DNA of 64,000 nucleotides from Oscillospiraceae bacterium (GTDB taxonomy: Bacteria; Bacillota; Clostridia; Oscillospirales; Oscillospiraceae), in the NCBI GenBank assembly GCA_017398725.1, contig JAFQFA010000011.1, positions 1 through 64,000 of the forward strand, in the 5' to 3' direction. The notes below the pieces were generated by a model, which saw only the letters and a list, made by a program, of their open reading frames with translations, had not been told where the DNA came from and ran no database searches. Positions 25,056 through 47,965 of the stretch are shown here, one piece after another. The translations under genes and the position numbers were made by a program. Each line of letters opens with the position of its first letter. Within the stretch, counting starts at the first letter, position 1.

Positions 25056-25076
25056 GTAATACATATAAAAACGAGA

Positions 25077-25105: not shown

Positions 25106-25247
25106 CCTGCTTTAGTCAAAAAGAAGAGAGGTAGAAAAGAGGTTTACGGAGTAGAAAGGGGCGGCTCACGGCTTCCGCGTCCTTTCTGAAAATAGAATAA
25201 TCAGAACTTTTGAACAGGCAATAAAGCATTTGAAAACAAAATGCGAC

Positions 25248-25673
25248 TTATTTGTTAAAATCTATTTCTTTGCGCTCTGACCAATAGGTCAGGGCGTTTT
25301 TTATATCCTGCTCCGGCAGGTCAAAGTATTCTGCCAGCTGCCAAAGCTCTGTATAACCCGCCCGGAAGGCATCCCGGAAGGCCGCTTCTGTCAAAAACCG
25401 CTGGGCCACATACCGGTTGGCGCGGTATTCGCTGCGTTCTACCAGCTCATAGGGGCTGTCTACCCGGTGCAAAGCGCCGGTGGCGATATGGCCAAGCTCA
25501 TGGCAGCATACCCCCCGCAGCAGCCGGGCAGAACAAATTTTGGAAAAATCCAGAAAAACCGCATAGTAATTGCCGTCCCGGACCGTGGCACCGGGCTGGG
25601 GCACACCAATGTAGGGAATCACATCCACATGATTGGTCTTGCAGTAATCGTAAAAACAGGATAACTCAAACAA
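25248..25673 (-). CDS. ImmA/IrrE-family metallopeptidase
   Basis: A 141-residue protein with the zinc-protease motif HELGH at residues 58-62 and a downstream Glu in VERSEYRANRYV, as in ImmA/IrrE. In ICEBs1 and PBSX-type elements such proteases cleave the XRE repressor made from the adjacent gene and so induce the element. It follows the repressor by two bases on the same strand. It is therefore the likely induction switch of the phage-like cluster. What activates it is not visible. Confidence 0.9.
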   Translation of the reverse strand: MFELSCFYDYCKTNHVDVIPYIGVPQPGATVRDGNYYAVFLDFSKICSARLLRGVCCHELGHIATGALHRVDSPYELVERSEYRANRYVAQRFLTEAAFRDAFRAGYTELWQLAEYFDLPEQDIKNALTYWSERKEIDFNK

Positions 25674-25675
25674 TG

Positions 25676-26017
25676 TTACTTCTCCCCATTGGAGGTTCTG
25701 CGGGCGCGCATCAAACGCACCATATCCCGCACGGCCTCCTTTTGCTCCTCGTCCAATTCCTTAAAATCGCCGTAAAATGCCACATCCACTTGGTCCAGAA
25801 TGTCAGAGGCGGTGTCATTCTGACCCAACAGGTATCCTACGGAAACGCCGAAATAACCGGCGATCTTCTGGGCAGTTTCCGCGTTGACGCTTTTTTTACG
25901 GCCCATTTTCAGGTCCGTCATCAGTCCGCGGCTGAGTCCTGTTTCGTCACACAGGCGACCGGGGCGGATGCCGCGCTGGGTGCAAAGCTTTTGGATCATT
26001 TCATATAAATTGCCCAT
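25676..26017 (-). CDS. XRE-family repressor of the prophage-like cluster
   Basis: A 113-residue protein with an XRE helix-turn-helix (IQKLCTQRGIRPGRLCDETG, then LSRGLMTDLKMGRKKSVNAE, AGYFGVSVGYLLG) and an acidic/helical tail (FYGDFKELDEEQKEAVRDMV). The start at 26017 is chosen for CGGAGGT 9 bases upstream; the longer frame begins among the operators. Four related palindromes lie directly upstream, as expected for a repressor that controls itself and the structural genes. The tail is the likely ImmA target. Confidence 0.9.
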   Translation of the reverse strand: MGNLYEMIQKLCTQRGIRPGRLCDETGLSRGLMTDLKMGRKKSVNAETAQKIAGYFGVSVGYLLGQNDTASDILDQVDVAFYGDFKELDEEQKEAVRDMVRLMRARRTSNGEK

Positions 26018-26029
26018 ATTTTTACCTCC

Positions 26030-26185
26030 GTACTTGTGCAAGTACACAAATTCCTGAAAAACAGGAAAATTAGTCTTGACATGTACTTGAACAAGTACTA
26101 TTATGAGGGCGTGACGAGTACTTGTCCATGTACAAAATCTAGTGAACATCTATATATTAGTACATGAACGGGTACTTGTCAAGAC
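26030..26185. promoter_or_regulatory. Switch region: four palindromic operators and opposing promoters
   Basis: Operators of the form GTACTTG-N2-CAAGTAC lie at 26030-26045 (perfect), 26083-26098 (perfect), 26118-26133 (GTACTTGTCCATGTAC) and 26160-26175 (GTACATGAACGGGTAC), with a further half-site at 26172-26185. A rightward promoter TTGACA (26076-26081)-N17-TATTAT (26099-26104) has operator 2 filling exactly the spacer. A leftward promoter TTGACA (26182-26177)-N17-TAATAT (26159-26154) has operator 4 in its spacer. A second leftward option is TGGACA-N17-CATAAT (26128-26100). Binding would block -35/-10 recognition on both sides. Confidence 0.85.
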
Positions 26186-26207
26186 CCAAGAAAGGAGGTG
26201 ATGGACC

Positions 26208-26426
26208 GTGGACCGGTCTTTCTGTAAGCCACAGATCCCGGCAACAACAGAATACAGGTCAAACCGTACAACATTCAGGACACTTTATATGCCCTTGGGG
26301 ATGCGCGACCCTCAACAGGCACAGCCGGTGTCTTGGTGTGTTTGCTGCGGGGCAGAGGTGTACCGGCCGGACACCTTATTATGCCGGCGCTGCGGTCCGG
26401 AGGATGACGGAACTGAGTACCCATGA
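26208..26426 (+). CDS. Small zinc-ribbon protein, first gene of the structural operon
   Basis: A 72-residue protein with a CVCCGAE...LLCRRCG pair of Cys knuckles near its end, a probable zinc ribbon. GTG start 9 bases after AAAGGAGGTG. It overlaps the next gene by 23 bases. Its place as first gene behind the switch promoter would suit a regulator or a packaging factor, but its function is unknown and I see no known family. Confidence 0.6.
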   Translation: MDRSFCKPQIPATTEYRSNRTTFRTLYMPLGMRDPQQAQPVSWCVCCGAEVYRPDTLLCRRCGPEDDGTEYP

Positions 26427-26781
26427 GATTCTGGAAGAGCTTCGGGCCATTGCCATGGCCCGGGCCACGGATTTTATGGCGGTCCGCGACGGCGGGCTGG
26501 AGATCCGTGCCACTGACAGCCTGACACCGGAGCAGGCCGCCGCCATCGCCTCCATCGAGCGTTCCACCGGCGGCTTGAAAGTGAAGTTTTACGACAAGCT
26601 GAAGGCGTTGGAACTGCTGGGTAAGTACTTGGGCCTGTTTGAGACCCGGGCGGCTTGGCCTGACGGGCAGGAAACCAATCTTTTGCAGGCCATTGTGGAT
26701 GCTACCAACAAGGAGGTGCCGACCGATGATCTACCGGAGCTTCAGCAAGCGGCAGCTGCTGGCGATGACTTGGTGGAATAG
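26404..26781 (+). CDS. Terminase small subunit, C-terminal type only (TerS, truncated)
   Basis: A 125-residue protein matching the C-terminal part of PBSX/SPP1-type small terminases (VRDGGLEIRATDSLTPEQAA..., STGGLKVKFYDKLKALELLG, KYLGLFE). Family members usually carry an extra N-terminal helix-turn-helix that recognises the packaging site. That part is not encoded here; the upstream in-frame residues are not HTH-like and the space is used by the zinc-ribbon gene. GGAGG abuts the ATG, so the start depends on coupling with the upstream gene and is uncertain. It overlaps terL by 56 bases. Confidence 0.7.
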   Translation: MTELSTHEILEELRAIAMARATDFMAVRDGGLEIRATDSLTPEQAAAIASIERSTGGLKVKFYDKLKALELLGKYLGLFETRAAWPDGQETNLLQAIVDATNKEVPTDDLPELQQAAAAGDDLVE

Positions 26782-27937
26782 ACCCGATCTTCGCCGGTTT
26801 GATGCCATCATTTGCGACGGGGCGGTGCGCTCCGGCAAAACAGTGTGCATGGTGGTGGGCTTTTTTCTGTGGAGCATGGCGTCCTTTAACGGGAATGTAT
26901 TTGCCCTTTGCGGAAAGACAGTGGCCTCTCTGCGGCGCAATGTGGTGATCCACCTGCAGCAGTGGCTGGGCGGGGTGCTGGATATTACAGAGCACCGCAG
27001 CGACAACCGGCTGGAGGTCCGCAGTCCCGACGGCAGAAAGAATACTTACTATCTGTTCGGCGGGCAGGACGAAAGCTCCTATATGCTTATTCAGGGTATT
27101 ACCTTGGCAGGGGCTTTGCTGGACGAGGCGGTACTGATGCCCCGCTCCTTTGTGGAGCAGACCTGCGCCCGCTGCTCGGAAATGGGGGCAAAGCTGTGGT
27201 TTAACTGCAATCCTGCCTCTCCGGAACACTGGTTTTACAAGGAATGGCTGGAAAAATGCCGGGAGAAGAACGCCCTGCATCTGCACTTTACCATGGGGGA
27301 TAATCCTGCCTTGCCTCCGGAGGTGCGAGCGCGCTATGAGCGCATGTACACCGGGCATTTTTACCGCCGGTATGTGCTGGGGCAGTGGTGCGGCGCGGAG
27401 GGTCTTGTCTACGATTTTGATCCCAAGCGCCATGTGACAGAGAAGCTGCCCCAAAGTGGCAGGTACTATATCTCCGTGGACTACGGTACCCAAAATCCCT
27501 TTTCCGCCGGACTTTGGTGCGTGACAGGGGACAAGGCCTACCGGCTGCGGGAGTATTACTACAATGGCCGGGAAGCAGGCAGGATGCGCACCGATCAGGA
27601 GTATTACGAAGCCTTGGAGGACTTGGCTGGGGATCTGCCGGTGGAGCAGGTGGTCATCGACCCTTCTGCTGCGTCCTTTATTGCGGTGGTGCGAAAAGCG
27701 GGACGGTTTCGGGTGCGTCGAGCCAACAACGAGGTGCTGCCCGGGATCCAGATGGTGGCGCGGCTTTTGCAGACCGGGCGCTTGCAGATCGGGGCAGATT
27801 GCAAAGCAGCCATTCGGGAGTTTTCTCTTTACTGCTGGCAAAGCACCGGCGAGCGGGATCAGCCGGTCAAGGAGAACGATCATGCCATGGACGATATTCG
27901 CTATTTCTGCATGAGCGTCCTGCGCCGGACACAGTAA
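26726..27937 (+). CDS. Terminase large subunit (PBSX family)
   Basis: A 403-residue packaging motor. The ATPase has Walker A CDGAVRSGKTVCMV and Walker B-like GALLDEAVLM, then the coupling-type WFNCNPASPEHWFY. The C-terminal RNase-H-like nuclease shows acidic positions in YISVDYGTQNP, VVIDPSAASF and NDHAMDDIRYF. It pumps DNA through the portal into the capsid and cuts it. The start at 26726 follows AAGGAGGTG by 9 bases. All key motifs are intact, so the motor may be functional. Confidence 0.93.
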   Translation: MIYRSFSKRQLLAMTWWNRPDLRRFDAIICDGAVRSGKTVCMVVGFFLWSMASFNGNVFALCGKTVASLRRNVVIHLQQWLGGVLDITEHRSDNRLEVRSPDGRKNTYYLFGGQDESSYMLIQGITLAGALLDEAVLMPRSFVEQTCARCSEMGAKLWFNCNPASPEHWFYKEWLEKCREKNALHLHFTMGDNPALPPEVRARYERMYTGHFYRRYVLGQWCGAEGLVYDFDPKRHVTEKLPQSGRYYISVDYGTQNPFSAGLWCVTGDKAYRLREYYYNGREAGRMRTDQEYYEALEDLAGDLPVEQVVIDPSAASFIAVVRKAGRFRVRRANNEVLPGIQMVARLLQTGRLQIGADCKAAIREFSLYCWQSTGERDQPVKENDHAMDDIRYFCMSVLRRTQ

Positions 27938-27961
27938 GTTGGAAACGGAAAGGAGTCAATA

Positions 27962-28153
27962 ATGAAAAAATGGTTATTGGAGCATTTTTTGCCTATGTGG
28001 GCAAAGGAAACGGTGCTCCGGGACAACCGCCGGCTGGCGCGGGAAAACCGGCAGTTAAGCCGGGATAACGAAAGCTTGCGCTGCTATATCCGGGGGCTGC
28101 ATGTGGGCCTGCGCAGCAGCCGGCGAACAGGAGGAAAACATGAAGCTTCTTGA
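27962..28153 (+). CDS. Small coiled-coil phage protein
   Basis: A 63-residue, strongly basic protein (KETVLRDNRRLARENRQLSR, then DNESLRCYIRGL) with an evident coiled coil. It lies between terL and the portal gene and overlaps the portal start by 14 bases. Similar short ORFs occur at this place in related prophages. Role unknown, possibly an assembly or DNA-binding factor. Confidence 0.65.
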   Translation: MKKWLLEHFLPMWAKETVLRDNRRLARENRQLSRDNESLRCYIRGLHVGLRSSRRTGGKHEAS

Positions 28154-29456
28154 GTATCAGCAAGCCTTTGGGGCATGGGACCGAACCTCGGAGCAGATGC
28201 GAAAAGGGATTTCTCAATGGTTTAAGCTCTACTATCAAAGCGGTAGCGACGGACAGCTTGATCCCTGCCAGCGGGTGGCTTACAGCGTGGTCAGCAAGCT
28301 GGTAAAAGCAATTTTCAGCGAGTACCGGGCAACAGCAGAAACGGCGTTTTATCAGAAAATTCTGGAGCAGCTGCTTGGCTGCCACCGGCAGGCCATGGAG
28401 CTGACCTTGGTGGGCGGCGAAAGTTATTTAAAGCCTTGCATCGGTCCGGATGGGATCAGCTTGACGGTGATCCCTCGGAACCGGGTGCTGGTGTTCGGCA
28501 GAGATCCGGAGGGGGAACTGACGGATGTGGGCATGCTGGAAAAATCCACGCAGGACCGCTACTATTACACCCTTTTGGAGCGCCGGCGGCTGGATGAGCA
28601 AGGTCTGCTTACCGTGGAAAACACCCTCTACCGCTCTTTGAATGCCCAAACGCTGGGAACCCGGGTGAGTCTGCAAAGCCTGCCCCGGTACAGGGCGTTG
28701 GCAGAGCGCTATACCTTCCCCCAAAGTTTGCATGGTGTGGGGTTGGTGCGATTGCGTACGCCTATGCTCAACTGCGTGGACGGTTCTGATGAGGGGGTCA
28801 GTGTGTATGCCCCGGCGGTGGATCTCATCGCCAATATCGACCGGAACGAAGCCCAGCTTTGCGGAGAGTTTGAGCGGGGCGAAAGCCGGATCATTACCTC
28901 CCGGGATCTTTTGGATGAAAACCGGCTTTTGACAGATCATCTGTTTATTGGGCTGGATGAAGATCCTCAGCAGGTGGGCTTCCATATTTTCAATCCCCAG
29001 CTGCGGCAGCAGTCCTTTTTGGACCGGAAGCAGGAATATCTGCGCAATGTGGAATCTGTGATCGGCTTGAAGCGGGGCATGCTGGCAGATGTGAACACCA
29101 ACCTGCGCACTGCCACGGAGATCTCTGCCAGCGAAGGGGAGTTTAATCTCACAGTGCTGGATTTCCAGCGGATGTGGCAGACTGCTGTGCAGCGGCTGTT
29201 TGCATTATGCCGGCAGCTGGCCGGGCTTTACGGTCTGGGCAGATTCCCGGAGGAGCGGGTGCAGATCGACTGGGGCAACGGGGTGCTCTTTGACGAGGAC
29301 AAGCTGTGGCAGGAGTACCGGCAGATGGTGCTTGACGGTCTCATCGCCCCGGAGATCGCGCTGGGCTGGCGGTTCAATATGCCGGCGCAGACCCCGGCGC
29401 AACGGGAAGCCATCCGCAGCCGGTATATGCCTCAAATTTGCCAAGGTCAGGCGTAA
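28140..29456 (+). CDS. Portal protein (SPP1 gp6/PBSX-like)
   Basis: A 438-residue protein of portal length. Typical features are the early YYQSGSDGQ segment, MELTLVGGESYLKP, the central clip region, and LKRGMLADVNTNLRTATEISASE, which resembles the wing/crown part of this portal family. Portals form the dodecameric gate used by the terminase and join to the tail. The ATG follows AGGAGG by 6 bases. No separate MuF-type minor head gene follows, unlike SPP1. Confidence 0.88.
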   Translation: MKLLEYQQAFGAWDRTSEQMRKGISQWFKLYYQSGSDGQLDPCQRVAYSVVSKLVKAIFSEYRATAETAFYQKILEQLLGCHRQAMELTLVGGESYLKPCIGPDGISLTVIPRNRVLVFGRDPEGELTDVGMLEKSTQDRYYYTLLERRRLDEQGLLTVENTLYRSLNAQTLGTRVSLQSLPRYRALAERYTFPQSLHGVGLVRLRTPMLNCVDGSDEGVSVYAPAVDLIANIDRNEAQLCGEFERGESRIITSRDLLDENRLLTDHLFIGLDEDPQQVGFHIFNPQLRQQSFLDRKQEYLRNVESVIGLKRGMLADVNTNLRTATEISASEGEFNLTVLDFQRMWQTAVQRLFALCRQLAGLYGLGRFPEERVQIDWGNGVLFDEDKLWQEYRQMVLDGLIAPEIALGWRFNMPAQTPAQREAIRSRYMPQICQGQA

Positions 29457-29513
29457 AAAAGACCAAGCGCAGGTGAAGCCACCACATAAAAAGCGTAGCG
29501 CGGAAAGGAATTT

Positions 29514-29972
29514 ATGAAACGGGAATTTTTGCAGAATCTGAAAGTAGGGGAAAGTGCTTTATCCAAAGAAGTCATCGACGCCATCATGGCGGAAAACGGG
29601 AAGGACATTGAAGCCGCCCGGCAGTTGGGCAACACATGGGAAGAAAAATATAACCATGCGGTACAGGCCCATCAGCAGGAGCTTACTGCCTTGCGTTTTC
29701 AGTCGGCGCTGGATGCTGCGGTCCGGGAGCATGGGGGCCGGAATACCAAAGCCATTGCCGCCCTGCTGGACATGGAGGCCATCCAAGCCAGCGAAGATCT
29801 TTCCGGGGCACTGAAAAGCGCCTTGGAGGAAGTGAAAAAAGAGCATGACTATCTTTTTACGGTGCAGACCCCGCCTCTGTTTGCCAGAGGTACAGGCGCC
29901 CAAACGGGTGAAATCGATCAGCGAAGCGCCACATTGGCAGGTGCTTTGCGGGAAAAATACGAAAGGAAGTAA
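29514..29972 (+). CDS. Capsid scaffold (phage minor structural GP20-like)
   Basis: A 152-residue, highly helical, charged protein (GNTWEEKYNHAVQAHQQELT, then VREHGGRNTKAIAALLDMEA) of the GP20 scaffolding type, located between portal and capsid genes as expected. Scaffolds guide capsid assembly and then leave. No capsid-maturation protease gene is seen next to it. Confidence 0.85.
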   Translation: MKREFLQNLKVGESALSKEVIDAIMAENGKDIEAARQLGNTWEEKYNHAVQAHQQELTALRFQSALDAAVREHGGRNTKAIAALLDMEAIQASEDLSGALKSALEEVKKEHDYLFTVQTPPLFARGTGAQTGEIDQRSATLAGALREKYERK

Positions 29973-29979
29973 ATAACTT

Positions 29980-30927
29980 ATGGCAATTACTCTTTACGAA
30001 GCAAAGGTCGGCATGGCCGACAAGGTAGATCAGCAGATCGTGGATATGTTCCGCCGCAGCTCTCAGCTGCTGGATGGCATGGTGTTTGACAATGTTATTG
30101 CCCCCGGTACCGGCGGCAGCACCCTGACCTACGGCTATATCCAGCTGAAGACCCCCGCCACCGCCGCGGTCCGTGCGGTAGGTGCCGAGTACACCCCCGG
30201 CGAGGCAAAGCGGGAGAAGAAGACCACCGGCGCGGTGATTATGGGCGGTGCGTTCCAAGTGGACCGTGTGCTGCAGAATACTGCCGGCGCTGCCGATGAG
30301 GTGGCTTTTCAGGCAGAGCAGAAGATCAAGGCTACTGCCAACTTCTTCCACAATATGGTCATCAACGGTGACAGCGACGAGGGCGGCTTTGACGGCCTGA
30401 AGAAGCTGCTGACCGGCACTGCCAATGAGCTGACCAGCGAGGTCAGTCTGGCAACCTCTGCCCAGCTGGATGAGAACTACAATGCCTTTTTGGATGAAAT
30501 GGATGCCTTCTTGGCGGCGCTGGACGGCACGCCCAGCATGCTGCTGATGAACACCGGCATGCTCATCAAGCTGCGCTCCATTGCCCGCCGCGCCGGTTAC
30601 TACGAGCGCACCCGGGACGATTTCGGCAACTTTGTGGAGACTTATGCCGGTATCCCCATGGTGGACATGGGCAAGTTCTTTGACGGTACCGAAACTGCCG
30701 ATGTGATCCCCACCGAGGAGGGCAAGACCGCCATTTACGCGGTATGTCTGGGCTTGGACGGCTTCCACGGCATCAGCCCGCAGGGCGACGGTGTCATCAG
30801 CTGCTACCTGCCTGACCTGTCTGCTCCCGGCGCTGTGAAGACCGGTGAGGTAGAACTGGTGGCCGGCGTGGCCCTGAAGAACACCATGAAGGCAGCGGTT
30901 CTGAAGGACATCGCCATCGGCGCCTGA
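29980..30927 (+). CDS. Major capsid protein (HK97-like fold, inferred)
   Basis: A 315-residue protein directly after the scaffold, with codon use more biased than its neighbours, as expected for the most abundant virion protein. The N-terminal arm and long helix (KVDQQIVDMFRRSSQLLDGM), the E-loop-like GGSTLTYGYIQLKTPATAA, and the P-domain (INGDSDEGGFDGLKKLL) fit the HK97 fold by position and pattern, but no profile was run. It forms the icosahedral shell. Confidence 0.85.
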   Translation: MAITLYEAKVGMADKVDQQIVDMFRRSSQLLDGMVFDNVIAPGTGGSTLTYGYIQLKTPATAAVRAVGAEYTPGEAKREKKTTGAVIMGGAFQVDRVLQNTAGAADEVAFQAEQKIKATANFFHNMVINGDSDEGGFDGLKKLLTGTANELTSEVSLATSAQLDENYNAFLDEMDAFLAALDGTPSMLLMNTGMLIKLRSIARRAGYYERTRDDFGNFVETYAGIPMVDMGKFFDGTETADVIPTEEGKTAIYAVCLGLDGFHGISPQGDGVISCYLPDLSAPGAVKTGEVELVAGVALKNTMKAAVLKDIAIGA

Positions 30928-30944
30928 GATGGGAGGCGCCGGGG

Positions 30945-31277
30945 ATGGTAGACTATGATTTCTACATAAATACCTACCTTGGCAGCACCATCGATGAAAA
31001 AAGCTTTCCTGCCGCGGCGGCTCGAGCCGCCGCGGTGTTGGAAGGGTATGAGCGGTGCTGCCGGGTACACTGCCCCGGTCCCGATAGCCGGCGCATGGCC
31101 CTGTGCGCCATGGCAGAGGTAATTCACAGCTATGGTCAGAGCCGGTTTGTGGATTCTGCCAGTATCGGTAGCGTATCTGTGCGCTGGGGCAGCCGGGGCG
31201 GTCATGCGCTGGAGCAGGAACTGCTGCGCAAGGCCGGGATCTATCTGGACATCCTGCGGGGGGTGGGGCAGAAGTGA
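30945..31277 (+). CDS. Head-tail connector (adaptor, gp6/gp15-like)
   Basis: A 110-residue, helical protein (DYDFYINTYLGSTIDEKSFP at the start, then a central helix ALCAMAEVIHSYGQSRFV) with the size and place of the adaptor that docks on the portal. It overlaps the next gene by four bases (GTGA). Confidence 0.75.
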   Translation: MVDYDFYINTYLGSTIDEKSFPAAAARAAAVLEGYERCCRVHCPGPDSRRMALCAMAEVIHSYGQSRFVDSASIGSVSVRWGSRGGHALEQELLRKAGIYLDILRGVGQK

Positions 31278-31597
31278 CGCACCCTCTTTGCAATCAGACG
31301 GTAACCCTTTACCACCCCACACCCCAAGGGGTTATTCGGCGGGTAGTCACCGGCTGTTTTTACCATTGGCAGCAAACCTGCCTTGCCGACGGCTTGGAAG
31401 AAACCACCTTCCTGTTGGTACTGCCGGCAGGGGAGTCTGTTTCGGTAGGCGACCGGGTTTTGGCGGGAATCGGGCCGGAGCAGGTGGTATGGGAGTCCTT
31501 TTTGCCTGTAAATACCCAGAGCCTGTCTGAGGTGGCCTATGTGACCCCTTACTATTTTATGGGCCGTCTGCACCATACCGAGGCAGGCAGAAAGTGA
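31274..31597 (+). CDS. Head-tail joining/minor capsid protein
   Basis: A 107-residue beta-rich protein (TVTLYHPTPQGVIRRVVTGC, LVLPAGESVSVGDRVLAGIG) in the position of the phage stopper. GTG start coupled to the preceding stop. The family call rests on position and size. Confidence 0.65.
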   Translation: MTHPLCNQTVTLYHPTPQGVIRRVVTGCFYHWQQTCLADGLEETTFLLVLPAGESVSVGDRVLAGIGPEQVVWESFLPVNTQSLSEVAYVTPYYFMGRLHHTEAGRK

Positions 31598-31604
31598 GGC
31601 GGCA

Positions 31605-32003
31605 ATGGATACATTAACGGCAATGCTTACCTTTTTACGGCAGTTTCCTTTATGGGAGCAGCAATCCCTGACGGTGGATGAAAAAAGCCCGAAGCCCCAT
31701 ACCTGTCAGCTCTTTCCTTTGGGGCTGACGGTGCTGCGCCGTCGGGAAAATGTACAGGGCGATAAGGTGTTTACCCTGCGGCAAAGCTTTCTGCTGCGGC
31801 GGGTGGCCTATGCCGGTCAGACGGCAGCTGCTTGGCTGCTGGCACTGCAAAACTGGCTGCTTACCCAGCCGGTGGAGGCGTTAGAGCCGGCCTTCGGCAA
31901 CCGGCTGCGGCTCTGGGCAGAGCAGGGACAGCCGGCAGGGCTCAATCAGCCCGGTACCGGTGTCTACCAAGTAAAAATCCATGTGGAATACGAGAAGGAG
32001 TAA
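31605..32003 (+). CDS. Tail terminator/minor capsid-type protein
   Basis: A 132-residue protein between the stopper and tail-tube genes, the usual place of the tail-terminator protein that caps the tail and joins it to the head. The pattern (QLFPLGLTVLRRRENVQGDK, then LALQNWLLTQ) fits this class loosely. GCGGCAATGG precedes the ATG; the ribosome-binding site is weak, so translation is probably coupled. Confidence 0.65.
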   Translation: MDTLTAMLTFLRQFPLWEQQSLTVDEKSPKPHTCQLFPLGLTVLRRRENVQGDKVFTLRQSFLLRRVAYAGQTAAAWLLALQNWLLTQPVEALEPAFGNRLRLWAEQGQPAGLNQPGTGVYQVKIHVEYEKE

Positions 32004-32006
32004 AAA

Positions 32007-32486
32007 ATGGCAAAAATCGAACGGAAATATTTGGCCCATTTCATCAATGCCGCCCAGCCCGGTCAGGAAGCAGAGTATGAGCGGCTGGGCAAGGATCTGG
32101 AGGAGTTCAGCCCGGAGCTTTCTGCGCAGGTAGAGACCCGGAAGAACATTCTGGGTCAGACCAGTGTGGTGATCTCCGGCTATGAAAAGACCGCCGCCGT
32201 AGAGCCTTTCTACGCGGTGGCAGGCAGCAGCCTCTTTGACCGGCTGCAGGCGATTATCGATGACGGCAAGGTGCTGGAAGAACTGAAAGCGGATGTGGTG
32301 GAAGTAAAGCTTTGGGAAGAAGAGACAGAAGCCGGTTTCCCCGCCATTTTGGAGGAAGTGTATATCGAGGTCACCTCCTACGGCGGCGATACCACCGGCT
32401 ATCAGATCCCCTTTACCCTGCACTATACCGGCAGTAAGGTGAAGGGCCGCTTCCAGCTGGAGAGCCGCATCTTTACCGCTGACTAA
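32007..32486 (+). CDS. Major tail tube protein
   Basis: A 159-residue protein starting MAKIERKYLAHFINAA, with beta-rich QTSVVISGYEKTAAVEPFYA and SLFDRLQAIIDDGK, in the pattern of siphophage tail-tube proteins. It polymerises around the tape measure. No sheath gene is present, so the tail is non-contractile. AAGGAG precedes the ATG. Confidence 0.82.
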   Translation: MAKIERKYLAHFINAAQPGQEAEYERLGKDLEEFSPELSAQVETRKNILGQTSVVISGYEKTAAVEPFYAVAGSSLFDRLQAIIDDGKVLEELKADVVEVKLWEEETEAGFPAILEEVYIEVTSYGGDTTGYQIPFTLHYTGSKVKGRFQLESRIFTAD

Positions 32487-32500
32487 AAGGAGGAATCCGG

Positions 32501-34855: not shown

Positions 34856-35223
34856 TGCTGCAGTATCCTTATCTCATTGAAGGGATTCCCATGCCCTTGC
34901 CGGATCAGGAGGTGCAAATGTCCTTTGAAGATCTGGATCACGCCGATGCGGGGCGGGATGAAGCCGGGTTTATGCACCGGCTGGTGGCACGGTATAAGGT
35001 TGGCTCGTGGGACTTTGTTTACAGCCATCTGACCCAGCAGACCTATCAGCAGCTTCTGCAGCTACTTCCCCAAAGCGGCAGCTTTGTGTTCTCTTATCCG
35101 GACCCCATGAACCCGGATCAGTACAAGCATACTGTCGCTTATTTATCCCGCTACGGCATCACTTGGCGCAATGCGGCCACGGGGCTGTACCGGAATCTGA
35201 AGTTTTCCATTATTGAGTGTTAA
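34855..35223 (+). CDS. Tail protein following tape measure (DUF6711-like)
   Basis: A 122-residue protein (MPLPDQEVQMSFEDLDHADA, then GFMHRLVARYKV and KFSIIEC at the end) in the place of a distal-tail or connector protein. ATG coupled to the tape-measure stop (TGATG). It probably forms the tail tip hub with the next protein. Family name from memory, moderate confidence. Confidence 0.68.
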   Translation: MLQYPYLIEGIPMPLPDQEVQMSFEDLDHADAGRDEAGFMHRLVARYKVGSWDFVYSHLTQQTYQQLLQLLPQSGSFVFSYPDPMNPDQYKHTVAYLSRYGITWRNAATGLYRNLKFSIIEC

Positions 35224-35240
35224 CATCGGGAGGTTTAAAA

Positions 35241-36884
35241 ATGCGCAATCATTTGATGGTACTGCCTGACGGCACAGAACTGTTTTCCGGCGGACCCGGC
35301 GGGGCCATCATGGGTCTGAGCCTGACCCGATGCGTCAACAGTCGGGAGGAACTGACACTGGGTTCTGCCTGTGCGGCCATGCTGGAAGCAAAGCTGCTGC
35401 TGCCGGAGGACATGTATCTTCCGGCGGATCGGGAGTTGATCCTTTATCAGGTGGATGAAGCCGGCGTCCGTCGGCAGGAGGGGATCTTTGTGACCCAAAA
35501 GCCGGTGCGGTGCGGCCGCCATAGTGTGAAGCTCACCGCTTTTGACCGGATGGTGTATGCAGATCGGGATTTGACCGGATGGCTGAACGGACTGACCGGT
35601 TGGCCCTATACATTATCTCAGCTGGCGCAGATGGTCTGCGATGAAATCGGTTTGGAGCTGACCGGCGATCCCTTGCCCAACGGAGATCTGCCGGTGCAGG
35701 CCTTTGAAGCTGCGGATATTACCGGACGGGAACTGCTGCAATGGATCGGAGAAGCAGCGGGTCGGTTTTCCCGGATCGATCCCCATGGTCGGCTGGAATT
35801 TTGCTGGTATACCCCGGCAGGCCGGATTTCCTTGGGGCCGGAATTTGCTTGGGGCATCCAAACTCGTTGCGAGGCCGGGCAGCTGACGCTGGCACTGACC
35901 GGCACAGCCACCCAAGAGGGGGTGGCACTGTCGGGGGAATACCTGTCTGCTGCCGATGACGGCATGGGCAATGTAACCCTCATCGGTCCGGAGCAGCAGT
36001 ATTATCTTATGGACTCTCTGGAAATGGCAGATTACACGGTCAGCCCCATTGAAAAGGTGCAGATTCGGGCATCCACCCGGGATGTGGGTACCTTGTGGCC
36101 GGATACGGAGCAGCCGGCAAACACCTATATTGTGCAGGCAAATCCCTTGCTGGCAGCCCAAAGCGGGGACAGCCTTGTCCGGGTGGCGCAGACTTTGTAT
36201 GAACAGCTGCATCAGGTACAATATACCCCCTGCAAGGTGTCTGTGCCGGCAGGATTGGATTTAGAGCCGGGGCAGATCCTGCAAATTACTGACAGTCGGG
36301 GTGCGCGGGCGGATATGTATATTATGCAAAAGGTCCGTGCCGGGCAGCATGAAACCTTGGAGTGTACCGGCGCAGCCCACCGGGAGACCACCACAGCGGT
36401 GAATGACCGCTATTTGAAGGCTTTGTCCGGAAAGGTGCTGGAACTGCGCACCGATGTGGACGGCTTGCAGGTAAAGAATGCGGATGCCGCAGGACGAACC
36501 GCCCAGCTGGAACTGGATGTGGAAGGCTTGCGCGGCCGGGTAAGCCGGCAGGAAAACGGCATGACTCAGCTGACCCAATTGCAGCAGGATGCCGCCTCTA
36601 TGGAGCTTAAGATCCAGACATTGGAAGAAAACGCCGGCAGAGTGATCACCTCCACCGGCTACAGCTTTACGGAGGATGGTTTGCAGATCAGCAAAACCGG
36701 ACAGGAAATGAAAAGCTTGGTGGATCATACCGGCCTGTATGTAAAACGGGGCGGCACGACGATCCTGCAAGCCGGCAACCGGGGCGTTACGGCGGTGGAT
36801 GTGACCGTGGGCAATTACTTGATCGTGGGAAACCACGCCCGGTTTGAAGATTTTGAAGGCGGCACTGCCTGTTTTTACATATAA
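35241..36884 (+). CDS. Phage tail tip/baseplate hub protein (tail-associated)
   Basis: A 547-residue protein. The first 350 residues resemble prophage tail endopeptidase/gp27-like hub proteins (VKLTAFDRMVYADRDLTGWL, YTLSQLAQMVCDEIGLEL). The last 150 are coiled-coil (VDGLQVKNADAAGRTAQLEL, then RQENGMTQLTQLQQDAASME) and end in a beta-rich trimerisation-like part. The ATG at 35241 follows GGGAGG. It likely contacts the cell wall. Confidence 0.78.
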   Translation: MRNHLMVLPDGTELFSGGPGGAIMGLSLTRCVNSREELTLGSACAAMLEAKLLLPEDMYLPADRELILYQVDEAGVRRQEGIFVTQKPVRCGRHSVKLTAFDRMVYADRDLTGWLNGLTGWPYTLSQLAQMVCDEIGLELTGDPLPNGDLPVQAFEAADITGRELLQWIGEAAGRFSRIDPHGRLEFCWYTPAGRISLGPEFAWGIQTRCEAGQLTLALTGTATQEGVALSGEYLSAADDGMGNVTLIGPEQQYYLMDSLEMADYTVSPIEKVQIRASTRDVGTLWPDTEQPANTYIVQANPLLAAQSGDSLVRVAQTLYEQLHQVQYTPCKVSVPAGLDLEPGQILQITDSRGARADMYIMQKVRAGQHETLECTGAAHRETTTAVNDRYLKALSGKVLELRTDVDGLQVKNADAAGRTAQLELDVEGLRGRVSRQENGMTQLTQLQQDAASMELKIQTLEENAGRVITSTGYSFTEDGLQISKTGQEMKSLVDHTGLYVKRGGTTILQAGNRGVTAVDVTVGNYLIVGNHARFEDFEGGTACFYI

Positions 36885-36896
36885 GGAGGAATCCCA

Positions 36897-38549
36897 ATGG
36901 CAATACAAAGCAAAGATTTTTCCGTATCCTGTAAAGCCTTGGGGGGCAGGGTCACGGTCAGCTATATTCTGCGTGTTACGGAAGAAAGTGTGGACACAGC
37001 AAAAAACTGCTCCCTCTTAACCCTGCAGGCGATTCTGAAGCAAGCCTATGACGGCACGGCTTTCCATAATTTCTGGACAGGTGTTTCTTGCAGTATCGAC
37101 GATCAAAGCTTGTTTTCCGATTACCGTATACGCACCCTCACCGGCAGGGAAGAGCATGTTTACCATACTTGGACCGGACAGATTCCCCACGAGGATGACG
37201 GCACCTGCACCATCCGTATCAGCGGTCGGGTCTGGCAGCCGGAGATGCCGGGCGACGCGCACTTAGATATGGAGATCACCGATGGGACGATGGTGCTGAC
37301 ACCGATATCCCGGGCTTCCGGGGTGGGGGCGGAGGATGCCCCCATCGAGGGCAGGACCACAGTGGTGATCTCCCCGGTGGCAGAGGGCTTTACCCACACC
37401 CTTGCCTATACCTTCGGGGAGGAAACCGGCTATATCGGGCAGGACGGAAGCACCAGCGATGTGCCGGTGCAGCTTACCGGTAATACGGTATCGTTTCTGA
37501 TTCCGGAAAGCTTTTATTACCAGATCCCCGACAGACCATGGGCAGAGTGCCTGCTGGAATGTAAAACCTACCGGCAGGATCAGCCCAGAGGAAGCAAAAT
37601 TACCCGGTTCCGGGTAACTGCCGACCCCGCCCGGTGCAGCCCAACGGCAGAGTTGGTGCTTTCGGATGTAAACGAAGCCACCCTTGCCCTCACCGGAAGC
37701 AAGAATCGGGCGGTGCAGTATATGTCCACCCTGCGCTGCCGCCCTCAGGTGAAGGCGATGTTCGGCGCCCGGATCACAGAATGTCGGATCAACGGCAAGT
37801 CTTTGGAAGGAGAATATCTGGATATACCCCAAGCGGAAAAGGATTGGGTCACCTGCCGGGTAACCGACAGCCGGGGCTATATCAGTATGGTCACAGCAAC
37901 GATCCCCATGATCCCTTATGTGAAGCTGACCAACAATCCCCAAGCGGTCCGCACCGCCCCCACCACCGGCTGCGTCAGCCTTACTTTTTCCGGGAATTGC
38001 TACCGGGGCAGCTTTGGAGCAGAAGACAATGTGTTATCCCTGCGCTATCGCCTGTGTCCGGAGTTTGGCAGCTTCGGTCCGTGGCAGCAGGTGCAGGCGC
38101 TTCCGGAGGCGGATCATACCTACCGGCTGGATCTGGAACTGACGGATGTGGATTATACCAAGTCCTACACATTGGAAACGGAGGTATTCGACCGGCTGGA
38201 TCGGGTAACGGCGGTACTGACGGTGCAGCAGGGAATTCCGGTGTTCCATTGGAAAAAGGATCGTTTTTTCTTCCATGTGCCGGTGGAGTGCGACCAAAGT
38301 GTGTCCGGCGCCTATATCCGCAGCCACCCCCTTTACGGACAGACGGAGATCGCCCTGACCATAGAGCCGGGACAGACAGTGTTTCTTTTCAGCGGCTGTA
38401 TTTGGGGAACGGTGCAGGCGACGGGACAGTGGCAGGGAACGGAAAATGTAACGGTCCGGACGGAAGCGGAGAAGGTCACCCTTTCGCTGCCTTATACCGC
38501 CAGCGACGAGGTGCTTCTCATTTCTTCCCGGAAATTTCAAGTAGAGTAA
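36897..38549 (+). CDS. DUF859-like phage minor structural protein
   Basis: A 550-residue, mostly beta protein. The conserved C-terminal motif GIPVFHWKKDRFFFHVPVE is typical of DUF859 tail-tip proteins. N-terminal half has Ig-like or jelly-roll strands (VSYILRVTEESVDTAKNCS). It is the likely upper baseplate/side-fibre protein. AAGGAGGAAT precedes the ATG. Confidence 0.8.
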   Translation: MAIQSKDFSVSCKALGGRVTVSYILRVTEESVDTAKNCSLLTLQAILKQAYDGTAFHNFWTGVSCSIDDQSLFSDYRIRTLTGREEHVYHTWTGQIPHEDDGTCTIRISGRVWQPEMPGDAHLDMEITDGTMVLTPISRASGVGAEDAPIEGRTTVVISPVAEGFTHTLAYTFGEETGYIGQDGSTSDVPVQLTGNTVSFLIPESFYYQIPDRPWAECLLECKTYRQDQPRGSKITRFRVTADPARCSPTAELVLSDVNEATLALTGSKNRAVQYMSTLRCRPQVKAMFGARITECRINGKSLEGEYLDIPQAEKDWVTCRVTDSRGYISMVTATIPMIPYVKLTNNPQAVRTAPTTGCVSLTFSGNCYRGSFGAEDNVLSLRYRLCPEFGSFGPWQQVQALPEADHTYRLDLELTDVDYTKSYTLETEVFDRLDRVTAVLTVQQGIPVFHWKKDRFFFHVPVECDQSVSGAYIRSHPLYGQTEIALTIEPGQTVFLFSGCIWGTVQATGQWQGTENVTVRTEAEKVTLSLPYTASDEVLLISSRKFQVE

Positions 38550-38559
38550 GGAGTGTATT

Positions 38560-39882
38560 ATGGCACAAATGAAAACCCTGACCGTTAGCGGTCAGACCTA
38601 CACCGTCAATGACCCGGCGGCGGTTTCCTTTCAGGAGAAACAAGCGCTGTCGCCGCAGCAGCAACAGACTGCGAGGGAAAACATTGGCGTGACAGCCCTT
38701 GATGACAGAAAAGCCGGCAAAGCCCCTTGGTCGGCAGAACATATCCTGCAGGCACTTTGCCCTGTGTTTCAGGATGCGGGCAACATGGTGCAGTGCTGCC
38801 CGGTGGAGGGAAGTAAGCTGGAACCGGTAAGTCGGATCCAGCCGGTGCAAGGCGGCACCGGAGAACCCAGCCCGGAAAATATCCGGCCCATTACCGGGCA
38901 AAGTGTGGTCAAGCTGACCCGGTGCGGAAAGAATCTGTTTAACATCGCAAAGGGAAAAAGCAGTAATGCTACTGTAAACGGAAACACCATTCGAGTTATA
39001 AAAAGCGCAAACGGCGGTCGCTCTAGCGGCAATGTTCCTTTGAATATTCCTGCCAATACGAGCTTCACCGTGTCCGGCAAGTTGATTGGTACAAATGGGA
39101 CTACAACAAACCCGTGGATGGTTTTTGTCATTACTGAATCCGGCAAATACCACGGTATTAATCAGTCCAATGTTTCCGCAGATGGAACATTTAGTTGGAA
39201 CAGAACATTTACCGAAGCGATCACAAAAAGCTACATCCAAGTAGAAATGACCGAGGAAGCCGGGGTATATGTGGAACTTGCCGACATCCAAATCGAGTTC
39301 GGCAAAAAAACCGACTACGAGCCGTACAATGGCGATACCTTCACCTTTGACTTAGGTCAAACTGTCTACGGTGGCGCAATCAACTGGGCAACTGGAGAAC
39401 TGACATGCACCCACAAAGGCATGGCAATGAAAGGGTTGGGCTGGTATGTTGTCGGCGCTATGATCTGCGCGCCGTTGGCCGACGGAATAAGGAGCGGAAG
39501 CATCGGTGTACCATGTTGGTGTAACATGTATGCTACCGCTACAACTACGCAGGAAGTTAACGGCATTATAAACGGGACAAACACCAAAATCACAGTAGGC
39601 TCTAACCTTATCGATATTGGCTGTATGGTAGCGGTGGGTAATCCGCAAGGCTTATCCGTGTCTGACTTTAAAACGGCACTTTCGAAAAACGATGCGCTTC
39701 TTGTGTATCAGCTTGCCGAGCCGGTCACCATCCAACTGACACCGCAAGAAATCTTTGCTTTGTCCGGGGTAAACACCCTCTACAGTGACACGGGAGATAC
39801 AGCGGTTACCGGCAGGGAAGCGCCGGCATCGGTTTTTGAGAAGCTGACCAATGCCGTTATTGCATTGGGCGGCAATGTATAA
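38560..39882 (+). CDS. Tail fibre/receptor-binding protein with mosaic centre
   Basis: A 440-residue protein. The N-terminal 125 residues (SGQTYTVNDPAAVSFQEKQA...) and the C-terminal end (YQLAEPVTIQLTPQEIFALS) resemble tail-tip proteins of Clostridia prophages. The centre (about residues 125-370, bases 38930-39670) is a carbohydrate-binding-like beta domain with visibly lower GC and different codon use. This suggests replacement of the binding domain by recombination. It presumably recognises the cell surface. Confidence 0.75.
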   Translation: MAQMKTLTVSGQTYTVNDPAAVSFQEKQALSPQQQQTARENIGVTALDDRKAGKAPWSAEHILQALCPVFQDAGNMVQCCPVEGSKLEPVSRIQPVQGGTGEPSPENIRPITGQSVVKLTRCGKNLFNIAKGKSSNATVNGNTIRVIKSANGGRSSGNVPLNIPANTSFTVSGKLIGTNGTTTNPWMVFVITESGKYHGINQSNVSADGTFSWNRTFTEAITKSYIQVEMTEEAGVYVELADIQIEFGKKTDYEPYNGDTFTFDLGQTVYGGAINWATGELTCTHKGMAMKGLGWYVVGAMICAPLADGIRSGSIGVPCWCNMYATATTTQEVNGIINGTNTKITVGSNLIDIGCMVAVGNPQGLSVSDFKTALSKNDALLVYQLAEPVTIQLTPQEIFALSGVNTLYSDTGDTAVTGREAPASVFEKLTNAVIALGGNV

Positions 39883-39894
39883 GGAGGAAAGGCT

Positions 39895-40104
39895 ATGTTT
39901 TGCTTGAAAGATTTTATTAAAAGGGGTCTTCTGGACGCGGTGGGGAAGATGGCAGACTATCAGGTGATCCTCAATGCTGCAGGGTGGATGGAAAAGGGAG
40001 TGCTGGGGCAAGCAGATCTTGCCCAGATCAGTGCTTCCATGGAAGCCCGGTATCCAGCAGAAGAAATCTCCGGCGAGGATGGGGTTGACCCGGAGGAGGT
40101 GTAA
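39895..40104 (+). CDS. Small tail/lysis-region protein (XkdX-like position)
   Basis: A 69-residue protein (FIKRGLLDAVGKMADYQVIL at the start, acidic end) between the fibre and endolysin genes, where PBSX-like elements carry xkdX. AAGGAGGAAAGGCT precedes the ATG. Function unknown. Confidence 0.6.
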   Translation: MFCLKDFIKRGLLDAVGKMADYQVILNAAGWMEKGVLGQADLAQISASMEARYPAEEISGEDGVDPEEV

Positions 40105-40107
40105 GAT

Positions 40108-40977
40108 TTGCCTTGTACGGCAGAACAGGTGATTGCCCTTGCACAGGCAGAGGTGGGATATCTTGAGAAAAAGAGCAACGCCCAGCTGGATAGCAAGACC
40201 GCAAACGCCGGCAGTAAAAACTACACCAAATACAACCGGGACTATGTGGCATGGGGCTGCGGCGGCAGTCGTGCCATGCAATGGTGCGGCGCCTTTGTCA
40301 GCTGGCTTTTTGCGCAGGCCTACGGATTGGAAGAGGCAAAACGCTTGCTTTGCGGCGGGCTGTTCCATTACACTCCCACCGGGGCAAACCGCTTTCAAAA
40401 GAAGAAGCAGTATATCCGCCGGGGGGAGGATAAGCCCAAAGCCGGGGATGTGGTGTTCTTTTATTCCAAGGAAAAGGGCAGGATCGGCCATACCGGTGTT
40501 GTTTACAAGGTAGATAATACCAAAGTCTATACCATCGAGGGGAATACCTCCGGTGCCAACAGCCTGATCACCAACGGCGGCGGGGTGAAGAAAAAGTCCT
40601 ACAAACTCACCAGTACTTATATCCACGGCTACGGCAGACCGGCCTATGGACAAACGCCGGAGGCTTATTCTTTTAAAGAGTTTGTAAAGGATGTGCAAAT
40701 GGCTTGCGGCGCAGCAGTGGATGGCATCGCCGGCCCGGAGACTTTCAGTAAGACGGTGACCTTGTCTGCCAAGGAAAATCCCTGCCACAAGGCGGTCAAA
40801 CCGGTACAAAAGCAGCTGGATGTATTGGGCTATCCGCAGGTAGGGAAGGCAGATGGCATCGCCGGCCCAAAATTCACAGATGCGGTGCTGGCCTTTCAGA
40901 AGGACCATGGCTGCCGGTGCGACGGCATTATTACCGCCCGGAATCAGACTTGGCGCAAATTGTTGAAAATGAAATAA
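40108..40977 (+). CDS. Endolysin: CHAP amidase/peptidase + peptidoglycan-binding domain
   Basis: A 289-residue lysin. The CHAP domain has the catalytic Cys in MQWCGAFVSW, His in RIGHTGVVY and the third residue in TIEGNT. After about residue 190 comes a PG_binding_1-like repeat region (VQMACGAAVDGIAGPETF, VQKQLDVLGYPQVGK, DGIAGPKFTDAVLAFQ). It cuts peptidoglycan to release particles. TTG start, justified by GGAGGAGGTG 8 bases upstream. No signal peptide, so it depends on the holin genes that follow. Confidence 0.9.
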   Translation: MPCTAEQVIALAQAEVGYLEKKSNAQLDSKTANAGSKNYTKYNRDYVAWGCGGSRAMQWCGAFVSWLFAQAYGLEEAKRLLCGGLFHYTPTGANRFQKKKQYIRRGEDKPKAGDVVFFYSKEKGRIGHTGVVYKVDNTKVYTIEGNTSGANSLITNGGGVKKKSYKLTSTYIHGYGRPAYGQTPEAYSFKEFVKDVQMACGAAVDGIAGPETFSKTVTLSAKENPCHKAVKPVQKQLDVLGYPQVGKADGIAGPKFTDAVLAFQKDHGCRCDGIITARNQTWRKLLKMK

Positions 40978-40992
40978 GAAAGGGAGCAAACA

Positions 40993-41223
40993 ATGAGTGA
41001 AACCATAATTGTGGCACTGCTGGGCTTTGTCGGTACGCTGCTGGGATCGCTGTGCGGCGTGCTGGCAGCCCAGAAGCTGACCCAGTACCGGCTGGCGCAG
41101 CTGGAGGATAAGGTGAATAAGCACAATAATCTTATTGAGCGTACCTTCCGGCTGGAAGGGCAGATGGAGGAGTGCCAGCACGATATCCGGGATCTGAAAA
41201 GCATTTGTCACGGAGGTGCATAA
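40993..41223 (+). CDS. XhlA-like holin/haemolysin-type protein
   Basis: A 76-residue protein with one N-terminal membrane span (TIIVALLGFVGTLLGSLCGV) and a cytosolic coiled coil (RLAQLEDKVNKHNNLIERTF), the XhlA layout turned around. With the next small membrane protein it probably forms the holin system, as xhlA-xhlB do in PBSX. AAGGGAG precedes the ATG. Confidence 0.7.
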   Translation: MSETIIVALLGFVGTLLGSLCGVLAAQKLTQYRLAQLEDKVNKHNNLIERTFRLEGQMEECQHDIRDLKSICHGGA

Positions 41224-41403
41224 ATGGAATTTGTAAAAAATCTTGCAAGTCTTTTGAAGGTGAAGACCATCGTGACCTTGGTGGTTATGGGTGTGTTTGC
41301 GGTGCTGGCACTGAAAGGTACGATAACCGCCGATAACGCCATGATCGTCATCTCCATGGTGGTATCCTTCTACTTTGGCACCCAGCACGAAAAGAAAGCA
41401 TAA
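41224..41403 (+). CDS. Small holin-like membrane protein (59 aa)
   Basis: A 59-residue protein: basic start MEFVKNLASLLKVK, hydrophobic TIVTLVVMGVFAVLALKG, second span AMIVISMVVSFYFG, basic end. ATG directly after the previous stop, with GGAGG 7 bases upstream. Two spans and position after the endolysin suit a phage holin. It is the last gene of the cluster. Confidence 0.7.
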   Translation: MEFVKNLASLLKVKTIVTLVVMGVFAVLALKGTITADNAMIVISMVVSFYFGTQHEKKA

Positions 41404-41441
41404 CTTTGGCGCACCTGCTTCGGCAGGTGCGCCAAAGTTTG
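41404..41441 (+). terminator. Terminator of the phage-like operon
   Basis: A 14-bp perfect stem CTTTGGCGCACCTG / CAGGTGCGCCAAAG with loop CTTCGG, right after the last stop. Only three T follow. Confidence 0.85.
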
Positions 41442-41469
41442 ATTTATCGAACAAGTTCCAATCCGTATT

Positions 41470-41652
41470 GTAGGGCGGGGGGAGCGATGCGACCGCCGCC
41501 AGTGGCGGGTAAAGGGAGCAGAGCGAGTGGCCGCGGTCGGTGTGCAACGCAGCCGCGCCGTCGGCAAGGCGCACACCGGGCACCGCAACAGGAACTGCTC
41601 CCGCCGCTCTGTTGCAGTGGCTTTTGACGGCGGGACCAAGGCCCCGCCCTAC
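41470..41652. repeat. Dispersed GTAGGGCGGGG palindromic repeat with inserted module
   Basis: Outer arms GTAGGGCGGGG (41470-41480) and CCCCGCCCTAC (41642-41652), flanked by TTTATCGAACAAGTTCCAAT and by GTTATACGAAAAACAG as at 5827-5898. The interior (about 41497-41590) is the inverse of the module at 776-890. So one copy carries both halves of a composite family. It fills the gap between the phage-like cluster and the DeoR gene. Confidence 0.75.
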
Positions 41653-47964: not shown

Positions 47965-47965
47965 T

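Follow-up and report, generated by a model that had tools for sequence, protein, structure and literature searches.

A prophage-derived gene cluster of Candidatus Faecousia as a candidate gene-transfer-agent-like particle lineage

Introduction

What purpose can a complete set of phage particle genes serve if no gene for moving or copying it lies beside it? The question is raised by a cluster of about 16 kb in a 64,000-nucleotide stretch of DNA (positions 1 to 64,000 of contig JAFQFA010000011.1, GenBank assembly GCA_017398725.1), which as a whole is called the window below. The original prediction, made from the letters of the window, had described a compact phage-like cluster that could be a gene transfer agent (GTA) or a PBSX-like element, and had assigned it to an acetogenic Clostridium. 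The host is in fact a member of Candidatus Faecousia (Oscillospiraceae). The window belongs to a metagenome-assembled genome (MAG) of 1.41 Mb, 66% complete, whose genus includes the Candidatus Faecousia genomes of loci L031 and L032 (by the coordinates of their major capsid protein (MCP) genes, members G046 and G146). In what follows L numbers denote loci or sequence stretches, G numbers denote genomes, and WIN is the window's cluster.

The cluster probably represents a GTA-like particle lineage of Candidatus Faecousia that arose from a temperate siphovirus, the branch of the window having kept a phage-type switch. The lineage seems to be old and inherited, and seems to have lost the genes for moving and copying as well as the part that recognizes its own DNA. 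As both the mobility and replication genes and this recognition seem to be missing, the particle probably packs pieces of the host chromosome, and it may hand them to other cells.

Results

Relatives of the cluster were collected by MCP similarity. Thirty loci in genome contigs and the best 80 of 105 confirmed in IMG/VR gave, with the window, 111 sequences; the genomes were mostly incomplete MAGs, one per species, and genes in the relatives were called by a simple codon-score script. An unrooted quick tree of the 85 sequences carrying at least two of TerL, portal and MCP was split by a branch with a Shimodaira-Hasegawa-like approximate likelihood ratio (SH-aLRT) of 100 into 76 rows without a match to family k28 and nine others, namely eight k28-bearing rows, three of them practically identical, and L046. 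Family k28 corresponds to phrog_581, a minor head protein, and marks the prophage side. From these 85 rows, 38 were hand-picked for spread and used for a more careful three-gene tree (TerL, portal and MCP, likewise unrooted), in which 31 stripped clusters were separated from seven related prophages by a branch with support 100/100, present in 200 of 200 bootstrap trees. Two prophages were checked for further genes: that of G142 carries genes for a tyrosine integrase, DNA polymerase A, a VapE-like protein and an SNF2 protein, and that of G137 genes for a serine recombinase, a DUF927 protein and a helicase. As to relatives beyond the genus, the MCP profile had matches in 10 genomes when 394 of the order were searched; seven of the 10 belong to other genera and were taken for other phages because the neighbouring genes matched weakly or not at all (best values dit, 51% in G342, and terS, 48% in G236).

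The two sides of the tree differ in the terminase. The TerS of the window (26404-26781, + strand) has 125 amino acids and lacks an N-terminal DNA-binding domain, its match to Pfam Terminase_2 beginning only at profile position 60; the start was placed at about 26404, a longer frame from 26164 being unsupported by relatives. The match to this profile of 141 positions starts at 59-65 in five of five clusters, whereas it starts at 1-3 in four of four prophage-side loci. A model of the N-terminal DNA-binding domain matched six of six prophage-side loci, by construction since it was built from these six and the G142 copy. In the 43 cluster loci it gave no match better than E 1; 11 of these loci are cut on the 5' side by a contig end and 40 differ in sequence. 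Residues 3-57 of the TerS of prophage L047 match PDB entries 2cmp and 4zc3, which we take to be isolated DNA-binding domains; in cluster TerS the similarity to a small terminase is confined to residues 117-153 of 3zqp, with a weak match to 3zqm. The lack of this domain has been proposed to define GTA-type TerS proteins and has been linked to non-specific packaging (Sherlock et al. 2019, PMC6854486). Judged by its predicted protein, the window's cluster bears the proposed hallmark. TerL (26726-27937, + strand; phrog_2, 1.2e-45) retains its motifs in most sequences: with patterns for known motifs, Walker A was found in 53 of 54 and the three nuclease motifs in 54, 50 and 54 of 54.

Homology with the sister element L126 from IMG/VR (blastn and pairwise alignment) places the whole element at 25058-41449, without strand, slightly wider than the 25248-41441 given before. 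The left edge lies directly past the stop codon of degV, the right edge directly past the right hairpin terminator (41402-41439, + strand, recognized from its sequence). Within the cluster no integrase or replication gene was found by Pfam and PHROG matches and an integrase scan, and between the border stretches 24900-25300 and 41350-41760 no exact direct match reaches a length of 9 nt, hence there is no att-like repeat. The predicted absence of integrase, excision and replication genes and of att repeats thus held for the cluster and its border stretches, and the integrase and attachment repeats by which a temperate prophage is recognized are both lacking. The nearest tyrosine integrases are at 50575 and 59303, the others of the genome being on other contigs; deoR, a major facilitator superfamily gene, PHP-like and amidohydrolase-like genes and tRNA-Met lie between them and the cluster, and both are in a low-GC stretch. 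No resolvase-type recombinase was matched in the window's genome. The low-GC stretch itself (47889-64000, past tRNA-Met) has the features of a separate mobile element, with the two integrases, a direct repeat of 61 nt (at 50008 and 63636) and, at 60469-61620, an open reading frame (ORF) that by eye looks relaxase-like.

Flanks were compared for those 13 related clusters whose contigs measure 29.8 kb or more (G119, G120, G123, G125 C7, G127, G128, G132, G133, G135, G139, G143, G144 and G145), of which those of G127 and G143 run to the contig end and show one side. Among the matches listed, a tyrosine integrase lay within 10 kb in two of the 13 (G120 and G123), with other genes intervening, and a resolvase-type recombinase in none. 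Many IMG/VR contigs end too soon to include any flank, and the absence of integrases holds only for clusters with flanks. Two candidates for other forms of the element were rejected. L139 (IMG/VR, 10465 bp with a 65-bp terminal repeat), considered as an extrachromosomal form, runs from portal to tal without a terL gene and could have arisen as an assembly loop. L202, considered as a circular permutation, is part of the full contig L219, in which no exact terminal repeat occurs and an sfsA-like gene lies next to the end of a second phage.

Some related clusters share their chromosomal site in two to five species. At locus A, which has a DUF218-like gene to its left and metV, metF and lar-type genes to its right (gene names at the three loci were read by eye from the sequence), the cluster is present with both sides in G123, G128, G135 and G144, and with the left side only in L041 and in G127, whose contig ends inside the cluster. 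Locus B holds the cluster of G132 and G133 with both sides shared, locus C that of G125 and G139 with the right side shared. For these pairs the ratio of nonsynonymous to synonymous substitution rates (dN/dS; Nei-Gojobori counts with Jukes-Cantor correction) was determined with cluster-internal ORFs counted apart from the neighbours. The cluster values (with those of shared genes outside in parentheses) were 0.120 (0.097) for G132/G133, 0.174 (0.207) for G125/G139, 0.134 (0.093) for G123/G128, 0.156 (0.121) for G123/G127 and 0.193 (0.153) for G135/G144; G135/L041 gave 0.150. The corresponding dS values, for which a value near 1 is close to saturation, were 0.539 (0.425), 0.968 (0.458), 0.382 (0.435), 0.248 (0.202) and 1.082 (1.106), so that cluster dS was within about a third of the outside dS in four of the five pairs. 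The purifying selection that the original prediction had proposed as a check is thus seen at dN/dS 0.12-0.19, and as read from these substitution rates, the five shared-site pairs have undergone long-term vertical inheritance under such selection.

These data also bear on the idea that the cluster is an ordinary prophage in decay after a recent loss of its integrase. Its descent from temperate phages with the same head genes is clear and would fit that idea, but the open genes, dN/dS far below 1, the deep branch, the repeatedly fixed sites and the shared truncation of TerS make it very improbable.

An empty site at locus A was sought in the 53 of 136 genomes with metF; 14 regions were inspected, one being that of the window's genome, and none was clean, the order around metV being variable. 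In G155, a genome without MCP match, a lone endolysin gene and two holin-like genes lie beside metF (L256, 11774-13156); they could be either a remnant or a second operon as in FpGTA, the GTA of Faecalibacterium discussed below. At locus A in G135 and G144 (L098, L099, L105 and L106) a tandem array encoding six to eight proteins of about 885 amino acids each lies directly left of the DUF218-like gene.

A number of observations weigh against an old, vertically inherited GTA-like lineage. An MCP match was found in only 31 of 136 genomes of the genus (7 of 40 of high quality), and at least five of the 31 (G009, G012, G021, G179 and G197) have a prophage-side or distant form. Presence is therefore patchy between species, which in part bears out what the original prediction had named as evidence against domestication, patchy presence among close strains. 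(The TerS profile matched 34 of the 136 genomes, many of them incomplete MAGs, prophage forms included.) In a rooted tree of MCP alone (121 rows) the prophages are basal and the clusters do not form one clade, mixed forks having SH-aLRT 75-92; given its starred branches, the prophage label, which in this tree was assigned to L044, L046 and L169 without a k28 gene, must have changed at least twice. In the pair G125/G139 cluster dS is double that of the neighbours, although only three outside genes were available. Other pairs have a higher dN/dS than the shared-site pairs, namely 0.277 for WIN/L126, 0.311 for WIN/L023 and 0.427 for L031/L032, the last raised by tal (0.51) and d859 (0.45). WIN, L126 and L023 are close relatives at three different sites, the left neighbour of L126 being a dihydroorotase-like gene and that of L023 a helix-turn-helix regulator (both read by eye). 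The window's own site is thus common to neither; of the expected conservation of locus, loci A, B and C are shared among relatives and the site of the window is not shared with its nearest ones. Homologues of degV elsewhere have different neighbours. Finally, the Walker B motif of TerL was found with our own patterns in 31 (strict) or 36 (loose) of 54 sequences, and the branch of the window retains a phage-type switch.

In a search for an empty site between degV and deoR, degV homologues were present in 52 of 81 genus genomes and 13 regions were inspected, none of which had any of 34 other queried window genes adjoining; in 80 other genomes there was no homologue of the window's deoR at E 1e-60. 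The different sites of WIN, L126 and L023 suit a self-packing mobile element that moves by an unrecognized route, such as a helper phage or recombination between dispersed end repeats. A dispersed repeat with inverted ends was observed in the window (41441-41690 and 5868-5935) and in L126 (4673-4835); it includes a 68-nt repeat with one copy at 41622, beside the right border, and another at 5868, far outside the element. Its copies touch the right end of WIN (41441-41690) and the left end of L126, and many partial copies occur elsewhere, in related genomes. Site-specific integration by way of these repeats was considered; the copies are at opposite ends in the two elements, and partial copies are numerous. 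That G122 and G125 each carry a cluster together with a related full prophage would also suit a mobile element. Against it stand the lack of a recombinase in the window's cluster, the fixed sites and neighbour-like dS of most shared-site pairs, and a TerS that without its DNA-binding domain should not select the element's own DNA; on balance we regard such an element as improbable, and a GTA-like lineage remains the better account.

The tail sets the clusters apart from the prophages and also varies among the clusters. Tape measures as called have 639-1004 amino acids in prophages and 207-601 in clusters (that of L162 called in part). At about 0.15 nm of tail per tape-measure residue, the short, 454-residue tape measure of the window (33491-34855, + strand; phrog_1535, 3.5e-29) would give a tail of about 70 nm. 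By a rule of our own, under which adaptor and dit genes lie close together without a tube or Gp15 match, 22 of the 111 sequences, L046 included, are tube-less. The gap between adaptor and dit is 262-718 bp in G123, G127, G128, G144 and L039, and 2.9-4.4 kb in 22 of the 23 tubed clusters called (8.3 kb in L024). Well-supported branches of the quick tree force at least three changes of the tube label, prophage-side L046 included, and locus A is common to G135 and G144, one tubed and the other tube-less. The tube-less clusters of G123, G128 and G144, which were read to the end, retain packaging, capsid and lysis genes. Because some relatives dropped tube and tape measure and kept these genes, selection seems to act on the DNA-filled head rather than on the tail.

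This is relevant to the possibility that the cluster makes a PBSX-like particle, which packs host DNA, does not deliver it and is kept for killing competitors. PBSX of Bacillus subtilis is chromosomal and integrase-less and has lysis genes and a repressor with an ImmA-like partner, and in ImmA/XRE control and lysis genes the window's cluster resembles it. Several tail proteins are moreover the fastest-varying ones between WIN and L126 (dN/dS 0.56 for tmp and 0.40 for d859, with lys at 0.41), as opposed to terL (0.09), which with hol1 (0.06), immA (0.08) and mcp (0.08) is among the lowest. The tail of PBSX, however, is contractile, and the window has a siphovirus-type set: no contractile-sheath family was found among the Pfam and PHROG matches of the window's proteins, which makes the earlier PBSX-like label doubtful. 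TerL belongs to the most conserved genes, and relatives without tube and tape measure but with packaging and lysis genes are a poor fit to a killing tail. A killing particle is thus unlikely, though the least unlikely of the alternatives weighed here, and the GTA-like reading is preferred.

The switch of the window's branch consists of an ImmA-type metallopeptidase (25248-25673, - strand; phrog_87, 7.4e-14; Pfam Peptidase_M78 8.8e-4, below its cut-off), an XRE repressor (25676-26017, - strand; HTH_26, 3.5e-8) and, between xre and terS, four palindromic operators (26030-26175, without strand). These operator-like palindromes of the GTACTTGNNCAAGTAC type start at 26030, 26083, 26118 and 26160, with 0, 0, 1 and 3 mismatches, and recur in the same order and at nearly the same spacing in L126, L127 and L023; in the 64-kb window only two further sites have three or fewer mismatches. 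Like immA, the repressor gene is constrained relative to L126 (dN/dS 0.11). In a first scan, confined to the window's ImmA/XRE, a match was obtained in two of the 30 genome loci, L023 and prophage-side L046; a later look found ImmA/XRE also in the prophage-bearing G137 and G142. If other clusters have no repressor at all, they would need control by the host. Directly beyond the last holin-like gene at locus A in G135 and G144 (L099 and L104) lies a Spo0A-like response regulator (recognized by eye) that is oriented towards the cluster; it is a possible host regulator.

The gene classes of the original prediction, from ImmA/XRE and operators through terminase to holins, are all present as open frames, fibre and holins being assigned by position. 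ImmA and XRE are read leftward, and TerS through the holin-like genes form a single rightward operon. All further features are on the + strand. A small zinc-ribbon-like ORF recognized by eye (26301-26426; open frame, 55% match in L126 and L127) precedes terS, and a conserved 63-residue ORF (27962-28153), matched in many related clusters, lies between terL and the portal gene (28101-29456; phrog_533, 7.5e-53). At 29439-29497 there is a GP20-b cis-regulatory RNA (Rfam RF03003, 49.1 bits), absent from the original prediction; such an RNA was also seen before the scaffold gene in five of seven related loci searched (L021, L023, L025, L034 and L047), one of them a full prophage. The head genes are those of the capsid scaffold (29514-29972; PF06810, 1.1e-20) and the MCP (29980-30927; phrog_212, 3.9e-65), followed by the connectors: a head-tail adaptor (30945-31277; phrog_541, 1.7e-11), a probable head-closure protein (31274-31597; by position only, no family match) and a tail completion protein (31605-32003; phrog_3266, 0.0014).

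Upstream of the tape measure are a probable tail tube protein (32007-32486; phrog_3099, 1.8e-43), a probable tail assembly chaperone (32501-32929; phrog_11299, 1.3e-17) and a Gp15-type protein (32926-33531; PF06854, 2.5e-14), and downstream a probable distal tail protein (34855-35223; phrog_1194, 4.1e-13), a tail tip protein (35217-36884; phrog_6616, 1.4e-11), a DUF859 tail protein (36897-38549; PF05895, 2.3e-17; phrog_372, 3.6e-42) and a probable tail fibre (38560-39882; by position, no family match). After a 69-residue ORF (39895-40104; open frame, no family match) the operon ends with a CHAP endolysin with peptidoglycan-binding domain (40108-40977; PF05257, 1.6e-12; PF01471, 1.2e-15) and the holin-like proteins 1 (40993-41223; phrog_1863, 2.8e-14) and 2 (41224-41403; phrog_13256, 9.4e-15). 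The families matched by the tube, chaperone, distal tail and holin-like proteins are without a named function, and these roles were assigned by position.

Discussion

The shared sites, the purifying selection, the split of the three-gene tree and the TerS without DNA-binding domain lend strong support to the domesticated, GTA-type particle that had been predicted. Such a particle could work as follows. XRE would keep the operon off by way of the four operators until ImmA relieves repression under stress. Scaffold-guided capsids would form, TerL and the shortened TerS would load chromosomal DNA without choice of sequence until the head is full, and the short tail would be joined to the filled head. 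Holins and endolysin would then lyse the cell, and the particle would deliver its DNA to related cells.

One comparison is with the full prophages of the same genus (L040 of G137, L047 of G142, L027 and L038), which have the same MCP, portal, TerL and scaffold families (L038 without a TerL match) and differ by the minor head protein phrog_581, longer tape measures, a full-length TerS (L027, L040 and L047) and, in the two that were checked, recombinase and replication genes. A capsid-forming satellite of the cf-PICI type has its own integrase and no tail genes; the window's cluster has no integrase and does have tail genes. RcGTA of Rhodobacter capsulatus has a siphovirus-like short tail, as predicted here, from a different phage ancestry. 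It further resembles the window's cluster in being encoded by a structural cluster with a TerS that lacks the N-terminal helix-turn-helix domain (PMC6854486). Its production depends on the host regulator CtrA, whereas in the present, different host a phage-type repressor lies beside the operon. The domesticated prophages and tailocins described for solvent-producing clostridia are likewise resident, vertically kept, prophage-derived clusters in Clostridia, but mostly form contractile R-type tailocins (PMC10538166).

The closest published system, FpGTA of Faecalibacterium (Borodovich et al. 2026, PMC12946183), was compared by its description. It packs 8.4-8.9 kb of Faecalibacterium DNA, and its genes form two operons, one of 10.5 kb and one of 5.5 kb. 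It shares with the present cluster a TerS without obvious DNA-binding domain, TerL, portal, scaffold and MCP, the lack of replication genes and a gut host from the Ruminococcaceae/Oscillospiraceae (PMC12946183). It has split operons, whereas the window has a single 16-kb cluster with tube, tape measure, lysis genes and a local ImmA/XRE switch. FpGTA particles have no identifiable tails (PMC12946183), which is paralleled here by the tube-less relatives. The same paper reports GTA-like packaging in an Oscillospiraceae genus (Onthomonas) and, as a strong operon candidate among the MAGs searched, F. prausnitzii; its main text nowhere mentions Faecousia. No description of the present cluster was found in the accessible portions of the openly licensed literature on GTAs of this group or on Faecousia prophages.

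Across the order, 32 of 394 genomes had a match to the cluster TerS profile, including three of this genus. Nine matches, with short TerS frames, fell in one other genus (g30, family f10), where another head cluster, apparently stripped as well, was observed together with a TerS that has no DNA-binding domain. In L288 it spans about 5.8-13.5 kb; the match of TerS to Terminase_2 begins only at position 53, and the genes that follow are those of TerL, portal, scaffold, an MCP of another family (phrog_283) and connectors. In six of the nine g30 genomes (L288 and L290-L294) the cluster lies between the same two genes, GH18 to its left and acetate kinase to its right, and TerL is about 28% identical to that of the window.

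A wider proposal, which we put forward tentatively and at slightly less than an even chance, is that a single old domesticated gene-transfer lineage of Faecousia is spread over many species and sites, has lost tube and tape measure more than once, passing from a siphovirus-like to a podovirus-like form, and is one among several Oscillospirales clusters, unrelated or very distant, in the same state (stripped operon, fixed site, TerS without DNA-binding domain). Few GTAs are known outside the Alphaproteobacteria (PMC12946183). If the proposal is true, GTAs would be a recurrent feature of gut Oscillospirales. The Faecousia lineage offers sequence-level GTA candidates in another gut genus, with prophages of the same genus as controls, so that the step from phage to transfer agent could be traced gene by gene as integrase, replication genes, minor head protein and the DNA-binding domain of TerS were lost, and its tube-less members bear on the question whether such particles need tails at all.

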